From Methanosarcina vacuolata Z-761 (GTDB lineage Archaea; Halobacteriota; Methanosarcinia; Methanosarcinales; Methanosarcinaceae), in assembly GCF_000969905.1 (NCBI RefSeq), contig NZ_CP009520.1, forward strand, positions 4,092,001 to 4,156,000: a stretch of 64,000 nt of DNA, read 5' to 3'. The notes under the pieces were generated by a model. It saw nothing but the letters and a program-made list of their open reading frames with translations, had not been told where the DNA came from and searched no databases. This document shows, one piece after another, positions 36,486-52,942 of the stretch (positions are counted from its first letter, which is position 1; every line of letters begins with the position of its first letter). Position numbers and translations under genes: made by a program.

Positions 36486-36661
36486 CTCATTTTACCAATT
36501 CATATTTCAAATTCTAAAAATAATTTCGTATGTGTTTATGAACTTTTGCATTATTGTTATTATGACTGTGAAAAGTCAAGTTTTATGTTATATAAACTGG
36601 TATGAAATTTAAATTGGATTTATGTGTAAATTAAAACAAATAAACACATGGTCGGATAAAA

Positions 36662-37234
36662 ATGAGGAAATTATGCACAGCATTACTTACTCTTGTAGTA
36701 TTGATCTCAACGACTACGAGTGTAGAAGCTCTGGAATCTAAGACGATAGAAAGGCATAATGGCGCATCTGCATACGCAGAATGGTATGAGATAAACAACA
36801 ATGCAACTACCTATACGTACTTATCTGTAACTGAAACCAATGATGGTACTGATATCTATGTATCAACCTATAAATATGGGCCAGATTATTGGTTCGAAAA
36901 GTCGGGATACATGTTTACAGAGAATGATGTCTTCAGTATAGATAAAAAACTCAACTCTGCAAGCCTGTCTGAGATTAATATTGATGTCAATAACTGGTAT
37001 ACGGGTGAAACCGAAACTATGGCTGTAAAAGCTACCTGGACTGGTATGGGAGATATATCAAAAGGATCTTCTTCATATAGTTCACAGAATGGAGATTATG
37101 TGTGGAAGAGTAGTGACAGTTCAACCTATAGAGGGGCTTCAGTCACAGGCAGTATAAATGGCATGGATCTTGGAGCAAGTTCCTATGCAAGTTTGTCTAA
37201 CTTCAAGTCTACATATATGAGCATGGAAAAGTAA
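36662..37234 (+). CDS. Exported protein of unknown function, paralogue A
   Basis: A 190-aa protein with a signal peptide (MRKLCTALLTLVVLISTTTSVEA, cleavage around residue 23-24). The mature part starts LESKTIERHNGASAYAEWYEI and has alternating Thr/Ser/Tyr strand-like patterns with GPDYWFEKSGYMFTE, DVFSIDKKLNSASLSEI and a C-terminal GASVTGSINGMDLG. It looks beta-rich and secreted. A second copy of exactly the same length lies at 41157-41729; they share about two thirds of residues, and the DYWFEKSGYMFTE to KKLNSASLS block is nearly unchanged. I do not recognise the family. The only cysteine lies in the signal peptide. Confidence 0.75.
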   Translation: MRKLCTALLTLVVLISTTTSVEALESKTIERHNGASAYAEWYEINNNATTYTYLSVTETNDGTDIYVSTYKYGPDYWFEKSGYMFTENDVFSIDKKLNSASLSEINIDVNNWYTGETETMAVKATWTGMGDISKGSSSYSSQNGDYVWKSSDSSTYRGASVTGSINGMDLGASSYASLSNFKSTYMSMEK

Positions 37235-37727
37235 ACGCATAACGAATATTCTTAAATGGTTAAATTATTTGGCTTTATAGAAGTTCTCAAATTCCTCATA
37301 AACACCTGCTGGAACTACTACTGGGTTTTATAATTCCATGTTAACTTTGATAATTCATTTAAAGAGAATTTCTATAAAACTATTTTTCAGTCTTATTTTT
37401 GCTGTCAACTATTTCATTATTTTATTTTTTCATACAAGAGGCTTTGCACAAAATGTCCGTATTTTCCCCGACTTTCTGTGCAGATGGGGGACTTTTTGTG
37501 CAAGATGCGAATCAAGGAAAAAATCAAGTTTAAAACATTTTAGAAATACTAAAATCAAGAGATATAAATAATACTGAAGATGTTTTTAAAAATATTTACA
37601 TTATGTAAGTCCTCAGTTAGAAAATAGAAAGATTGGACGCAAAAACATATTATGAAATAAGAAGAGAAGAGTCTAAATCTTAGAAAAGGTAGTAATTAAT
37701 ATAATTTAAATGTGTTCTAATTTTCTC
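37235..37727. other. Region after paralogue A, with a 58-bp hairpin
   Basis: No gene is seen. TGCACAAAATGTCC (37445-37458) is repeated inverted as GGACTTTTTGTGCA (37489-37502), 13 of 14 paired, forming a long hairpin around TTTTCCCCGACTTTCTG. The rest is AT-rich. Confidence 0.45.
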
Positions 37728-37892
37728 TTATATGGGGAGGATAGGGGGTACCCCTATCTCCTGTAGTCTTGCATTTTTTATTTCGGCCATTGCATTAGCT
37801 AGGTGTTTAGCTGCTTTACTGAGTTTTTTGCTAGATTCCTCAATGCACCAGAGTATTATTATGAGGAATCCTACTACTGTAAATACATCCAT
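37728..37892 (-). CDS. Possible small membrane protein, 54 aa
   Basis: Reading frame of 54 codons: MDVFTVVGFLIIILWCIEES gives a single N-terminal membrane helix, then an amphipathic Lys/Ala/Glu helix (KKLSKAAKHLANAMAEIKNARL) and a VPPILPI tail. The sequence looks protein-like and not random. The SD (TAGGTT) is weak. A plus-strand frame of similar length in the same DNA looks less like a protein. No family recognised. Confidence 0.4.
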   Translation of the reverse strand: MDVFTVVGFLIIILWCIEESSKKLSKAAKHLANAMAEIKNARLQEIGVPPILPI

Positions 37893-38366
37893 TTATTTAA
37901 CCTATTCAATACTTTTCGATTTTAATGGCAGTGGGCACTGCCAAAAAAGTAAGATGTAAACTTATATAAAAAATATGCTAAATGTTTAGCCTCGTTTAAT
38001 TATAATAAATGAAAAAATAATTATTAAAACAATTATTTTGAGTGAATATTTTAGAAAGGATTGATTTTTTAGTTATGTTTATATGGAAGTTTAATATTCT
38101 ATTATATGCACCAAAAAGTGAAAAAAACTACTGGTTTCAGAGATATATTTTTCACCAAACCTTCAAATTATTAACATCGGCTATGAGCTGAGGCAGTACT
38201 TTTCGATTATGGGCAAATTTTCGGAGGTATAAGTGATGGAGATTTGTTGTAGTCTGAAACCAGTAGACAATTTTCTTTCATTTCTAAAAACAACAAGTAA
38301 AGTCTATTTTATATTTTACATACAAATATATTAAAAAATAATAATTGTGTATACAAAAAATTAACT
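37893..38366. other. Intergenic region with a 139-bp inverted-repeat element
   Basis: AT-rich and non-coding apart from the element at 38128-38266, described separately. Confidence 0.4.
38128..38266. mobile_element. MITE-like element with 14-bp perfect terminal inverted repeats
   Basis: CTACTGGTTTCAGA (38128-38141) and TCTGAAACCAGTAG (38253-38266) are exact reverse complements bounding 111 bp. The interior has no gene. No target-site duplication is obvious at the ends. Confidence 0.5.
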
Positions 38367-38702
38367 TTAATCTTCCTTATAAAATTTTTCCACTCCTCCG
38401 TTCCCATTTTCTACAGGAACCTTTAACAGTAATGTACCTTTATCGTTCTGTTTTTGTCTAAATACTAGACTAGATCCATCATCAAGAAATAGAGTAATCT
38501 CATTTTCTCCATACTGGCCTTCAACTTCTTTCCACGTTCCCTTATAGTTTTCCAATCCTCCAGTGTGGTAAAAAGCGGTTCCATCAGATGCTAATGTTAC
38601 GTATTCTTGATCTTCCCCACTACGAACGTATTTTGTTTCTTTTGATGCACAACCAGAGGTAAATATTATAAGAAATAGCAAAATAATTAACAGTTTTCTC
38701 AT
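38367..38702 (-). CDS. Small lipoprotein of unknown function
   Basis: A 111-aa predicted lipoprotein: MRKLLIILLFLIIFTSGC is a classic lipobox (Cys18). The mature part, with TYYHTGGL-like strands (YVTLASDGTAFYHTGG, YKGTWKEVEG, ITLFLDDGSSLVFRQKQ), looks like a small beta-barrel or lipocalin-type fold. The start at 38702 is chosen because the signal peptide begins there; a longer frame extends 34 codons upstream without SD support. No close family recognised. Confidence 0.6.
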   Translation of the reverse strand: MRKLLIILLFLIIFTSGCASKETKYVRSGEDQEYVTLASDGTAFYHTGGLENYKGTWKEVEGQYGENEITLFLDDGSSLVFRQKQNDKGTLLLKVPVENGNGGVEKFYKED

Positions 38703-38915
38703 TGGGACACCAAGAAAGAGTACGAGGGGTTGAGATTTATTTATTGTGTTTGTAGATACTGTCATATATACGAGTGGCAGTTTAAAAAACTTAATAACTG
38801 ACATAAAAACACATGCAACTAATTAAAAATAATACACAAGAGTATCTATATTGAAATAAACCGAAACACTATTAAATTGTAAACAATAATAACTGAAAAT
38901 ATAGGAGTTTTTACA

Positions 38916-39671
38916 TTGAGTTCATCAAATAATTGCCTTGAAAACGTAATTTTAAGGTTTGATTTTAATGATAATATAATAATTCCAGAAGATGTCGTGT
39001 CTACTGTTGGAAAAGAGTTATCCAATGATTTTAGTAAATATGAACAATCGGAAAGGAATGATTGGAAAGTGGACATCCAATCAGGGCAATTGGTTACTGA
39101 ACACAGAAAAATCAAAATATACACTTTTAAAAATGGTTTAGGGGACTCAATATTATTAGATACTAATGCTCTGACTTTTAATATTCTGAATTATAGCAGC
39201 TATAGTGAATTTATTTCACATGTAAAACGAACTATTTCTTTGTTACAAGTAGGCAATGAAGAACTAAAGAGATTAGGACTCAGATACATAAATCATATCA
39301 AATTAAAAGAGGGTAGCCCTTTTGAATGGGAGGGGTATATTGCACCACCCTTAATTCAGAATATTGATTTCTTAGATGATACAGATCGTAATAGTTTATC
39401 TCGAAATATGGGACAAATGCTCTTTAATAAATATGATCCAGATCGTTACTTGAATTTTATATATGGGATGCCTAATAGCGAATTCCCAAACAAAATTGCA
39501 AAACGCGAGTTCGTTTTAGATTATGATTGTTATACTGAAAGTAATATCAATATAAATGAAGCATATGCATATATTACAAGTTTCCACGATGAAATAAAAA
39601 GAATGTTTGTCAAAAGTATAGGTGACAAACTAAGAACGAAAATAGGTGAAGATAAATTATGTATGATATAA
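38916..39671 (+). CDS. TIGR04255-like family protein, first gene of a three-gene cassette
   Basis: A 251-aa protein that resembles the sporadically distributed TIGR04255 family: short beta strands at the N-terminus (LENVILRFDF), a KIYTFKNGLG segment, and the hallmark helix-strand LKRLGLRYINHIKL (residues ~118-131). The C-terminal half holds a YDPDRYLNFIYG segment and ends in a Lys-rich helix. Family function is unknown; it is patchily distributed with accessory neighbours. Start is TTG 38916 with ATAGGAG upstream. AT content is clearly higher than in the neighbouring core genes. It overlaps the next gene by 13 bp, so the genes are translationally coupled. Confidence 0.7.
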   Translation: MSSSNNCLENVILRFDFNDNIIIPEDVVSTVGKELSNDFSKYEQSERNDWKVDIQSGQLVTEHRKIKIYTFKNGLGDSILLDTNALTFNILNYSSYSEFISHVKRTISLLQVGNEELKRLGLRYINHIKLKEGSPFEWEGYIAPPLIQNIDFLDDTDRNSLSRNMGQMLFNKYDPDRYLNFIYGMPNSEFPNKIAKREFVLDYDCYTESNININEAYAYITSFHDEIKRMFVKSIGDKLRTKIGEDKLCMI

Positions 39672-39877
39672 ACGATCCTTTTTCAATACGTGGAGTTTCC
39701 AAGACAGAGAGTAAACTATCGAATTCTTCTGTAATTGATTTAGAGAAAGAGTCCACCAAAAGTAAAAATGATTATAGGGCATTTTTCGAGAAAGAAACAT
39801 TCGAAAAGTATATAGAAACTTATCCTAAGGCAGAAGTAAGAAAGAGGGTATTATGCCGTGTACAAATCCCAGATTAA
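39659..39877 (+). CDS. Small protein of unknown function, second gene of the cassette
   Basis: A 72-aa charged protein (MYDINDPFSIRGVSK..., then ...EKESTKSKNDYRAFFEKETFEKYIETYPKAEVRKR). It looks mostly helical after residue 30, with no cysteine cluster or membrane segment. AGGTGA lies seven bases before its ATG. The start overlaps the TIGR04255-like gene by 13 bp, and its 3' end overlaps the next gene by 20 bp. I do not recognise a family; antitoxin-like size and charge are noted but unproven. Confidence 0.55.
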   Translation: MYDINDPFSIRGVSKTESKLSNSSVIDLEKESTKSKNDYRAFFEKETFEKYIETYPKAEVRKRVLCRVQIPD

Positions 39878-40466
39878 TACAATGTATAGAAGGCACAATC
39901 CCTTAGATAGAGTGTATCAAGGAGATATATTACAAAATCTATCTATGAAATCACTTGAGTATATCGATGGAGAATACGATATAATAAGTATAGATCTTCC
40001 TTATGCTGTTGTAATGACGCAGGATTGTGATTTAGAGTGGGATTATAATACTAGAACAAGTGTGAAAACCCATGACAAATATTTGCCTACAATTTTAATA
40101 TGTCCAGCATATTTAGCCCAGTTGTTAAAAGACGGCACACATTTAAAAAATATAGGGCAAATAATGAATAAATGGAATTCTGATCAATTCAAAGGCATCA
40201 AAAAACAAAATAATGACAGGTTCCATTATTTAGAAGAACATACTAATTTGCAAGTTGCAGAGCTTGTAATTGATTTTAAACATTATTATACAATTCCCCG
40301 AAATGCGTTATATCAAGTATATACTGAAAAATATCTAGCTAGTTTAAATCAATTATATAGAGAGTATTTATCCCAGAGATTCTTTAATTATCTTAGTAGA
40401 ATCGGGCTCCCAGATATATCAAATTGCGAATCAGATGAAGTAGCTGAATTAACGGGATCAAAATAA
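39858..40466 (+). CDS. Unknown protein with a TQDCDL motif, third gene of the cassette
   Basis: A 202-aa protein. The block LPYAVVMTQDCDLEWDY (about residues 47-63) puts a Cys-Asp-Leu motif after a hydrophobic strand; this resembles a small family of hypothetical proteins with QDCD/QTCD cores that I cannot name confidently. Further on are YLPTILICPAYLAQLL, LEEHTNLQVAELVIDFKHYYTIPR and a YREYLSQRFFNYLSRIGL helix. Start GTG 39858; an in-frame ATG at 39882 is an alternative. The cassette ends with no terminator hairpin. AT-rich like its partners. Confidence 0.55.
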   Translation: MYKSQINTMYRRHNPLDRVYQGDILQNLSMKSLEYIDGEYDIISIDLPYAVVMTQDCDLEWDYNTRTSVKTHDKYLPTILICPAYLAQLLKDGTHLKNIGQIMNKWNSDQFKGIKKQNNDRFHYLEEHTNLQVAELVIDFKHYYTIPRNALYQVYTEKYLASLNQLYREYLSQRFFNYLSRIGLPDISNCESDEVAELTGSK

Positions 40467-40674
40467 AACTAAGTAGTTTTTACCTTCAAACTTGCATTTT
40501 AAATCAATGTGATTCATTTATTTTTCCTCTTTTAGCTCAATCTAACAAGCTTCAGCATGGTTCTATTGTTGATATCAAAGTTTATACAGAAATTACTGTT
40601 TTCTCTGATTTTCCATGAAGAAACTCAGGCTCAATCCCATTCTCATACATCTCATGAATAACAACAGTCAAATT

Positions 40675-40864
40675 CATTGGTCATCGGTTAAGGAATTTTC
40701 TTGCCTGAAAGCTATCGATTTTGCATTAGAAGCCGGACTTAAATTTTGGCCTATTTACATGAAATCGATACACTGCTCCAGTTCATAATTTATTAAAATA
40801 TTCTACTGGTGTTGAGGAAATTGACGCAATTTATCACGATTCTTCACTTAACCGAAGGCGCATG
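40675..40864. mobile_element. Copy 1 of a 186-190 bp two-copy element with 18-bp TIRs
   Basis: Starts CATTGGTCATCGGTTAAG and ends in CTTAACCGAAGGCGCATG; reverse-complementing the end gives 14 of 18 identities to the start. The interior is similar to copy 2 at 52978-53163 along its full length, with substitutions and short indels. In copy 1 one indel breaks the open frame present in copy 2. Confidence 0.75.
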
Positions 40865-40880
40865 AATTTCTTTTGTTTAT

Positions 40881-41130
40881 GAGCTTGTCCTGAAACCTGG
40901 CTGCCAAATATTGGCACGCCATTTAATTTCAGCCACTGATTTTTAGAAAATTGATTAAAGCGCCAATTGTTAGATACCTTGGTCATAAAATTCATATGGA
41001 TTTTCAAAGTTGTGATGTTTGGAGTTCAATTGGGTGTGAAATTATTGGTTAGAATCCAAAACCTCGAAGCTCAATTAGTCACTTACAGAATGAAATATCA
41101 AGAACTAATTTTGAGTTTTGGGATCAGCCC
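40881..41130. mobile_element. Possible MITE-like relic, CCCAAAAC-type ends
   Basis: GAGCTTGTCCTGAAACC (40881-40897) is an imperfect inverted match to AGTTTTGGGATCAGCCC (41114-41130). It ends 26 bp before the start of paralogue B and shares end sequence with elements near 12.1 and 54 kb. Confidence 0.35.
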
Positions 41131-41156
41131 GAATTATTGCTTCAAGGAGGTATGTA

Positions 41157-41729
41157 ATGAGAAAACTGTACATAATGTGTTTTACACTCATAGTCTTGCT
41201 TTCAACATCTATGAGCGTACAGGCAATGGAATCTAAAACAATAGAAAGGCAAAGCGGCTCATCCGCATATGCAAACTGGTATGAGACAAACGGCGACGTA
41301 ACTACCTGTACATATCTGTCCTTAACTGAAACCAAAGATGGTACTGATATATACTTATCAACTTACACATATGGGCCAGATTATTGGTTCGAAAAGTCGG
41401 GATACATGTTTACAGAGGATGATGTCTTCAGTATAGATAAAAAACTCAACTCTGCAAGCCTATCTGATATTGAGCTTGAAGTCACTGACTGGAATACAGG
41501 TGAAACAGATACTGTAACCGTCGGAGCCGACTGGACTGGTACAGGAGAAATTTCAACCGGGACCTCGACCTCAAAATCAACAACTGGCGACTACGTGTGG
41601 AGAAGCAGCGAAAATTCAAAATACAGGGGAGCTTCGGCCACAGGCAGTATAAACGGCCTGGATCTTGGGATAAGTACTGACGCAAGTATGTCTAACTTCA
41701 AGTCTGCCTATATGAGTATGGAGAAATAA
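41157..41729 (+). CDS. Exported protein of unknown function, paralogue B
   Basis: A 190-aa protein homologous to 36662-37234 and identical in length. Signal peptide MRKLYIMCFTLIVLLSTSMSVQA, then MESKTIERQSGSSAYANWYETN, GPDYWFEKSGYMFTEDD, DKKLNSASLSDIELEV and a C-terminal GASATGSINGLDLG. SD AAGGAGGTATGTA precedes the ATG at 41157. The gene carries several Cys/Thr changes against paralogue A (e.g. TTCTYLSL). Upstream sequences of the two paralogues differ; here the upstream DNA ends in a relic of a mobile element. Confidence 0.75.
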   Translation: MRKLYIMCFTLIVLLSTSMSVQAMESKTIERQSGSSAYANWYETNGDVTTCTYLSLTETKDGTDIYLSTYTYGPDYWFEKSGYMFTEDDVFSIDKKLNSASLSDIELEVTDWNTGETDTVTVGADWTGTGEISTGTSTSKSTTGDYVWRSSENSKYRGASATGSINGLDLGISTDASMSNFKSAYMSMEK

Positions 41730-50932: not shown

Positions 50933-52126
50933 ATGATTAAAAAAGTACCTTTAACCGAATTGAAAAACCGGATGAGAAATTTTAGAAAACGGATGGATAT
51001 CTCAAATCCTCAATGGGAGATAGCTGTTATCTTCAGCAAGATAAATCTATATTATTTTACAGGTACGATGCAAGATGGAATGCTGATTATCCCTAAGCAC
51101 GGAGAAGCAACTTTCTGGGTACGCCGCAGCTATGAAAGAGCCCTAGATGAATCTTTATTTCCAAATATAGAACCTATGAACAGTTTTCGTGATGCTACAA
51201 AAAGTATAAGTGGACTTCCGAACACGGTATACCTTGAAACCGAAGTTGTTCCTCTAGCTTTGTACCAGAGATTTCAAAAATACTTCCCTTTTAAGAATGT
51301 CAAATCTGCTGACTCTCAAATTTGCGCTGTCAGAGCAGTAAAAAGCGAATATGAACTCTCGCTAACAAGAGAAGCTGGCAAGATTCATCAGCATGTGCTG
51401 GAAGATCTTGTGCCCGAAATGCTGCATGAAGGAATGAGTGAAGTAGACCTGTCAACCGAACTATTTTCAGTTATGGTCGAAGAAGGCCATCATGGATTAT
51501 GCCGCTTTGGGATGTTTGATACCGAGATGTTCCTGGGAAATGTGTGTTTTGGTGAGAGCTCGATTTATCCTTCTTACTTTAACGGGCCTGGCGGAAATTA
51601 CGGGATGAGCCCTGCGGTTCCCCTGATAGGAAGCCGTGATAGAAAACTGAAAAAAGGAGATCTGGTATTCATTGATATCGGATGTGGAATTGAAGGTTAT
51701 AACACGGATAAAACAACAACATACATGTTTGGTTCTTCGCTTCCACAATATGCAATCGATGCCCATAATAAATGCGTGGCAATACAGAACGAGGCTGCTT
51801 CAATGTTAAAACCAGGAGCCATACCTTCAGAAATATACAATACCATAATGAGCAATCTAGATTCGGAATTTCTACAGAATTTTATGGGCTTTGGTAACCG
51901 TAAAGTAAGATTTCTCGGGCACGGCGTCGGACTGCTAATCGATGAACTGCCTGTAATTGCAGAAGGCTTTGACGAGCCCCTTCAGGAAGGAATGGTATTT
52001 GCCCTCGAACCTAAAAAAGGAATCGAAAACATTGGAATGGTCGGAATTGAAAACACCTTTATAGTGACTGCCAAAGGTGGAGAATGCATTACCGGTGACA
52101 ACCCGGGATTGATTCCTGTATATTGA
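50933..52126 (+). CDS. M24 family metallopeptidase (Xaa-Pro aminopeptidase/prolidase type)
   Basis: A 397-aa peptidase of the pita-bread fold. N-terminal creatinase-like domain (residues ~1-150), catalytic domain ~160-397. Metal ligands: Asp in [18 protein letters not shown] (two Asp, near 243 and 254), His in [13 protein letters not shown], Glu in FALEPKKGI and Glu in VGIENTFIV. It would remove N-terminal residues ahead of proline. ATG 50933 has GGAATCTAC upstream, a weak SD. The gene is convergent with a membrane wHTH regulator. Confidence 0.9.
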
Positions 52127-52201
52127 TCACTAAAATACTGTATAAACCCAAAGTCTAATCGATTCATAGAAAACTGACATTAAGATGAAGCTGTTCGAAG
52201 A

Positions 52202-52942
52202 TTATATTTTGAGCCATTTCAACAACTCCGACTCCACATCCGGGTTTACAATATATTTTGTAAACTTGCCTTCTACTTCGGAGGAAATGATCTCATCTTC
52301 CCTTAATTTTTTTATATGCCAGTGAGTAGTGCTTTTGTCTAAATTCAGCTTTTCTGAAATTTCCTGATTTGTAATCTCAGGATTTTCCAGAATATTAAGG
52401 AGTATTTGTTTTCTTGTACTGCCTTTAAGATGTGAGATTATTGTTTTATCGTTGCTTGTGAAAACATTGGAATTTTGAAAGACTCTTGTGAACTTTCCTT
52501 CCTTCTTAAAAGTCAGCTCCTCTTCGGATTTGAGTGTTCTGATCTGATACCTTATAGATCCCAGACTAATTTTCAGGTTTCTTGAAATTTCAGACGGCGT
52601 ACACCCTGGCTTCATCAGCACATAATTAATAATTCTCTTTTGAATAACATTTTTACTCAGGCTCCTTACCTGACCAATAATTATAGGAACCAGTTTAAAA
52701 AGAGAAACAAAAGCAGCCAAATATCCGATTATGTAAGCGATTTTAAATGACAAAGGAAATTCCCAGAATGAGTACGTCACATCAGCACCGCTCATATCAA
52801 CAGCAGTACCCAATTTGTCGAGCTCTTCTTCGGGTGGGCAGGGACCAACTGTATATCCTCCGGTATCTGCACTGGTTATACCCAGGATACTCAGGAAAAA
52901 GATACTCAGGAAAAGAATAAAAAATAAGCTCTTCTTCCACAT
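52202..52942 (-). CDS. Membrane-associated protein with two winged-helix domains
   Basis: A 246-aa protein: an N-terminal hydrophobic segment or signal (KSLFFILFLSIFFLSILGI), a short outside part, a membrane helix (~68-95, FKIAYIIGYLAAFVSLFKLVPIII), then two ArsR-like winged helices: CTPSEISRNLKISLGSIRYQIRTL and ITNQEISEKLNLDKSTTHWHIKKLRED. This suggests a membrane-bound sensor-regulator, a common methanogen arrangement. It lies upstream of an exported-peptidase region but points away from it. Its 5' side is followed by copy 2 of the 186-bp mobile element. Confidence 0.8.
   Translation of the reverse strand: MWKKSLFFILFLSIFFLSILGITSADTGGYTVGPCPPEEELDKLGTAVDMSGADVTYSFWEFPLSFKIAYIIGYLAAFVSLFKLVPIIIGQVRSLSKNVIQKRIINYVLMKPGCTPSEISRNLKISLGSIRYQIRTLKSEEELTFKKEGKFTRVFQNSNVFTSNDKTIISHLKGSTRKQILLNILENPEITNQEISEKLNLDKSTTHWHIKKLREDEIISSEVEGKFTKYIVNPDVESELLKWLKI

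Follow-up and report, generated by a model that had tools for sequence, protein, structure and literature searches.

Positions 38916-40466 of the window (the whole 64,000-nucleotide stretch of Methanosarcina vacuolata DNA analysed here) carry a cassette of three genes on the forward strand. Gene 1 (38916..39671, with a TTG start preceded by AGGAG) is an open reading frame of 251 amino acids that matches the NCBIfam TIGR04255 profile; gene 2 (39659..39877, ATG start) encodes a 72-residue linker protein, which we propose to be an antitoxin or adaptor; and gene 3 (39858..40466, GTG start) encodes a 202-residue protein, here called the QDCD protein, which we propose to be a toxin. Genes 1 and 2 overlap by 13 bp and genes 2 and 3 by 20 bp, and all three frames are intact, in agreement with the coordinates, strand and overlaps given by the first-pass annotation. 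The same annotation had likened gene 1 to TIGR04255, and this likeness is now established: the match has an E-value of 4.9e-27 and 95.3 bits, against a curated NCBIfam membership cutoff of 30 bits, and spans positions 3-252 of the 252 in the profile. By this cutoff, gene 1 is a member of the family, whose alignment has the invariant residues G121, L122, R123, Y124, N126, D202 and D204. The other two genes had been called unnamed, and indeed neither matches any Pfam, NCBIfam, PADLOC or PHROGs family above threshold. The core residues of gene 3 are Q21, G22 and D23, Q55, D56, C57 and D58, R121, D139 and R181. Gene 2 of M. vacuolata is too short and diverged for a sequence match to other types of gene 2, and its support consists only of its intactness, its position and the resemblance of its basic tail, YIETYPKAEVRKRVLCRVQIPD, to the tails of its relatives.

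The cassette sits in an accessory island of about 5 kb (36641..41682) that is missing at the same site in the closest relatives. Namely, in a close sister genome (G151, whose CbiC is 96% identical) about 14 bp separate the counterparts of positions 36640 and 41682 (L191, 1009 and 1023). The island had been described as AT-rich, and GC content, which is about 0.43-0.46 a few kb further left, indeed drops to approximately 0.30 at the cassette. The two flanking genes for exported proteins (36662..37234 and 41118..41729, both on the plus strand) are paralogues, as had been claimed, with 81% identical DNA between 36661-36960 and 41156-41455. Other sisters have one copy of the exported-protein gene at this site and no cassette, and the island may thus have come with, or between, the duplication. 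The inverted-repeat relics reported earlier are real but modest, amounting to one MITE-like element of about 195 bp with inverted ends (40672..40866) and about 40 copies in the genome; these copies are roughly 79-90% identical, contain no long open frame and occur in other genomes of the genus as well. A putative lipoprotein gene (38367..38804, minus strand), divergent from the cassette, lies inside the island and outside the conserved unit.

The family was also said to be patchily distributed, and of 31 genomes in the genus only three (M. vacuolata, G167 and G175) have TIGR04255, the site being empty in close sisters. On the TIGR04255 tree, gene 1 does not cluster with its genus-mate but falls among sequences from Methanoperedens and others related to ANME, a placement which suggests horizontal transfer.

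Conservation of the order and the QDCD family

When gene 3 was used as the query, 23 of the 186 genomes in the order had a match, and further matches came from 16 loci on GTDB contigs, with Chloroflexi and a WOR-3 bin among their sources, and from a Methylocystis plasmid. All of these loci but one (L023) have a co-oriented TIGR04255 gene directly upstream, with an open reading frame of 50-130 amino acids between the two genes; this statement covers gene-3-driven searches and is confined to loci where gene 3 is intact and sufficient upstream sequence is available. In the Methylocystis record, an independent annotation gives TIGR04255, a protein of 70 and one of 192 amino acids, with 8-bp overlaps. 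The order TIGR04255 - linker - QDCD is thus found in methanogens and ANME archaea, in Chloroflexi and on bacterial plasmids, and its recurrence in dozens of genomes argues that the arrangement is not due to chance. Both junctions have a median gap of -4 bp over 86 well-called loci, in 85 of which the gaps are within 20 and 30 bp. Automatic gene calling failed for a number of loci that are GC-rich or fragmentary (L008, L013, L033, L034, L083, L096, L098, L099, L122 and L125), most of which were classed by hand. The WOR-3 cassette (L034) is nearly identical to the copy in an archaeon (G006), reflecting either recent cross-domain transfer or contamination of the bin or MAG.

Intact relatives have a small open reading frame in the position of gene 2, with pN/pS between 0.24 and 0.5 in most usable pairs and values of 0.77 and 0.95, based on few changes, in two. 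As pN is mostly below pS, we take the second frame to be a gene; these values come from the relatives and not from the M. vacuolata copy. The first-pass annotation had staked its three-gene system on the co-occurrence of genes 2 and 3 with TIGR04255 in the same order elsewhere and on the conservation of the second frame, and on neither count is it refuted. In other words, its core reading, that of a defined, patchy and co-expressed accessory system with features of a toxin module, is supported.

A second branch of the QDCD family has a much larger linker. It consists of TIGR04255, a linker of approximately 200-285 amino acids and a protein with the motif [ST]Q.CD[ILV], and is found on plasmids of Klebsiella, Pseudomonas, Vibrio, Kocuria and Chroococcidiopsis and in Chloroflexi genomes. 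By hhalign, the QDCD families with small and with large linkers are homologous (probability 96.4, E 1.3e-9), and several of the bacterial large-linker relatives have a helix-turn-helix in gene 2, a feature common to many antitoxins. In yet another context, an archaeal genome encodes a GHKL (HATPase_c) ATPase protein to which a QDCD-like domain is fused C-terminally (L021:1-1926). For the QDCD protein itself, we detected no homology to a known toxin and found no homologue of known function. By eye, it could plausibly be a diverged MazF/PemK protein, given its QGDI motif, a hydrophobic strand and a second strand, but hhalign gives this relationship a probability of only 0.7%, and we rejected it. 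Its structural model has low confidence (pLDDT 64.3), and the absence of any significant fold match to it is uninformative. No QDCD protein was found in the IMG/VR and INPHARED viral collections, in which TIGR04255 is rare. One related cassette does occur in a phage record, that of a Methanobacteriales virus from the human gut (L069; vir080, 51298-52942), where TIGR04255 is followed by a 160-residue protein and a HEPN-like protein.

Exchange of the third gene and of the gene-2 tail

Among the 105 TIGR04255 loci placed on the tree, the third gene is of the QDCD class in 53, HEPN in 23, PIN in 5, LRRI in 5, RFIFS in 3, PemK/MazF in 1, HicA-like in 1 and of other kinds in 3, with no partner in the remaining 11. 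The classification relied on motifs and, at some loci, on manual assignment. Pfam supports one locus each for PIN (L049, PF01850, 6.7e-10) and PemK (L112, PF02452, 1.5e-9), both above the gathering cutoff, and for HEPN (L107, PF05168, 24.3 bits as against a cutoff of 22), while the remaining PIN, HicA-like and HEPN assignments rest on motif or alignment only. The tree requires at least 16 changes of third-gene class (17 if orphans are included, as compared with 59.5 for shuffled labels), well above one origin per class. Within one clade of closely related TIGR04255 proteins, QDCD, PemK and PIN proteins interchange at the same position. The toxin-type features that had been ascribed to the cassette are strengthened by this replacement of gene 3 with known toxin families in related loci. 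The loci without toxin or linker partners (L100-L106, L108, L109, L115 and L116) are concentrated in one archaeal clade, 9 of the 11 belonging to the genus g33, so that TIGR04255 either has another use there or is decaying; judging from this gene content, it may represent a form that is domesticated or orphaned. A search of plasmids for relatives of the PIN-type gene 2 found none.

The most informative comparison concerns the PemK locus, L112. Its TIGR04255 protein is 68-74% identical to those of five QDCD loci (L110, L114, L119, L022 and L027), while its third gene is unrelated to theirs, with no match better than E 2.6. The gene-2 proteins of the two kinds of loci are homologous over their first 100 or so residues (E to 1e-19) and differ in their tails. 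Moreover, the L112 tail, SETSLKKDWLKPEEDEAWKDL, is the one found in ordinary antitoxins of 61-82 amino acids, whose genes immediately precede PemK in other genomes of archaea and which have two different N-terminal types before the same tail. These two-gene pairs have no TIGR04255 within the available locus sequence. The converse situation is seen in L023, where a QDCD gene occurs without TIGR04255 and with a different upstream gene, and where the tail of gene 2, FDIFIKIPPVKERTARINIKSIEKAKMHVVEPE, is nonetheless of the QDCD type, indicating that tail and QDCD behave as a unit. The gene found there in place of TIGR04255 encodes a 222-residue protein with no Pfam match (L023:2401-3069), possibly an alternative controller. 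Taken together, the two comparisons indicate that the tail travels with the toxin and the N-terminal portion of gene 2 with TIGR04255. Such a pattern would be expected if gene 2 were an antitoxin with a toxin-specific tail and a TIGR04255-linked domain, and it is from the exchange of gene 3 together with its matching tail that we read gene 3 as the toxin.

A probable tripartite toxin-antitoxin-type module and its alternatives

We consider it likely that the cassette is a tripartite toxin-antitoxin-type module with TIGR04255 as its constant third component. Judging by position, toxin replacement and tail exchange, the most likely assignment is that of gene 3 as toxin, gene 2 as antitoxin and gene 1 as constant controller. 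The support is computational only, and consists of the gene order, its conservation, the replacement of gene 3 by members of known toxin families, the matching exchange of gene-2 tails and the location in an accessory island; toxicity, neutralization, complex formation, sensing, an RNA target and defence are all inferred. In terms of type II-like toxin-antitoxin systems, the cassette consists of adjacent, small, overlapping genes able to be co-transcribed, as it should; membership of gene 3 in a known toxin family is not met for QDCD and is met in related loci by PIN, PemK and HEPN proteins. In the mechanism that we propose, the C-terminal tail of gene 2 would neutralize the QDCD toxin, its N-terminal part would connect the antitoxin to TIGR04255, and gene 1 would hold and stabilize the antitoxin-toxin complex. 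Gene 1 would probably also sense a trigger, such as a phage protein or stress: once it is titrated away, the antitoxin would fail and the toxin would arrest the cell. The target of QDCD would most likely be RNA or translation, as with the toxins that replace it.

Could genes 2 and 3 be an ordinary two-gene toxin-antitoxin pair that is merely transcribed behind an unrelated TIGR04255 gene, for example that of a small-molecule enzyme, or behind an extra regulator at most? The two-gene PemK pairs, the QDCD pair of L023 and the TIGR04255 proteins that stand alone in one genus would all fit such a view, as would the resemblance of the TIGR04255 AlphaFold model (good confidence, pLDDT 83.8) to AdoMetDC/prozyme, its best fold match in the PDB, which we treat as weak since, despite a good E-value (6.7e-5), the TM-score is only 0.27. 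What makes us regard it as unlikely is that TIGR04255 stays first in the operon through all of the toxin-class changes and across domains of life, and that the toxin classes found with TIGR04255 have a common N-terminal domain in gene 2, while other N-termini are seen without it, although only one comparable case is available. One can also argue that there is no toxin module at all, with QDCD being an enzyme of some unknown accessory pathway and the PIN, PemK and HEPN cases being separate captures of TIGR04255. The lack of a QDCD homologue of known function leaves room for this, but the exchange of QDCD, PemK and PIN within a single close clade and the common gene-2 domain of the PemK and QDCD versions speak against it, and we find it quite improbable.

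A dedicated abortive-infection system, in which TIGR04255 would recognize a phage product and release the toxin, is a special case of the tripartite toxin-antitoxin reading with the trigger specified, so that our confidence in the two overlaps; we hold it as a tentative possibility only. The mobility and patchiness of the cassette, a copy beside an AbiJ-type gene on the Methylocystis plasmid, the GHKL fusion in L021 and the precedent of CmdTAC, where titration of the chaperone by a phage capsid protein releases the toxin (PMC11618068), all point in this direction. Conversely, a related cassette is itself located in phage record vir080, and none of the three cassette proteins matches PADLOC, so that they do not qualify as a known anti-phage system. 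The link to defence that was initially suggested finds no support in the neighbouring genes. Namely, 88 proteins flanking the cassettes matched 24 PADLOC families, each in one protein, as against 20 families, some in two or three proteins, for 88 proteins from control regions, albeit with a small control drawn from three genomes and unmatched locus by locus. Since the flanks contain no more PADLOC matches than the controls, we rejected the defence-island argument as evidence, and a role in defence, which is untested, rests on analogy only.

The tripartite toxin-antitoxin reading finds its closest parallel in the toxin-antitoxin-chaperone (TAC) modules, in which a SecB-like chaperone stabilizes the antitoxin through a transferable extension (PMC5105189). 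Both TAC modules (Mtb-TAC, CmdTAC; PMC5105189, PMC11618068) and the present cassettes have three genes and combine a constant component with several unrelated toxin families, and the extension that links the TAC antitoxin to the third component may have its counterpart in a part of gene 2, namely the N-terminal domain common to the toxin classes, for which there are no data on dependence. However, the TAC extension (ChAD) is C-terminal, the toxins here include QDCD, HEPN, PIN and PemK, and the third component is TIGR04255 instead of a SecB-like protein. The idea that TIGR04255 is SecB-like was rejected, as SecB was absent both from the 50 PDB fold matches listed and from the results of a PDB sequence-profile search, and we therefore do not class these modules as TAC members. 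TIGR04255 would be analogous to the SecB-like chaperone and not homologous with it, and a TAC-like mode of working is inferred. The Panacea antitoxin network (PMC8832971) similarly pairs one conserved domain with many toxin families, but Panacea is a domain of the antitoxin itself, while TIGR04255 is a separate third gene. As for two-gene PemK/MazF systems, L112 combines a PemK toxin with the tail that is usual for PemK antitoxins, the N-terminal domain of the antitoxin being replaced and TIGR04255 added; the M. vacuolata QDCD protein is not detectably PemK-like.

NCBIfam lists the family ('sporadTIGR04255') with no stated function. Our literature search found no mention of TIGR04255 (or of its InterPro number), of the operon structure or of the toxin exchange; most subscription papers and preprints were outside its scope, and an earlier description is not excluded. 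With this reservation, the three-gene TIGR04255 cassette is apparently a widespread and undescribed one. More broadly, TIGR04255 may be a non-SecB class of controllers in archaea and bacteria that licenses unrelated toxins via a gene-2 adaptor and senses the trigger of a combinatorial conflict system with QDCD as a new toxin family, a proposition that we see as evenly poised. A named family without known function would thereby gain a testable role, leading operons with exchangeable toxins, QDCD is predicted, by inference from its genomic partners, to be a new toxin family, and many pairs of 'hypothetical proteins' beside TIGR04255 become interpretable. The findings also suggest that the toxin-antitoxin-chaperone principle has been realized a second time, with a different structure, in both archaea and bacteria. 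Further candidates for new toxins are the uncharacterized LRRI (L085, L086, L089, L096 and L151) and RFIFS (L091, L139 and L144) families behind TIGR04255, whose loci have gene-2 proteins that are homologous to each other.
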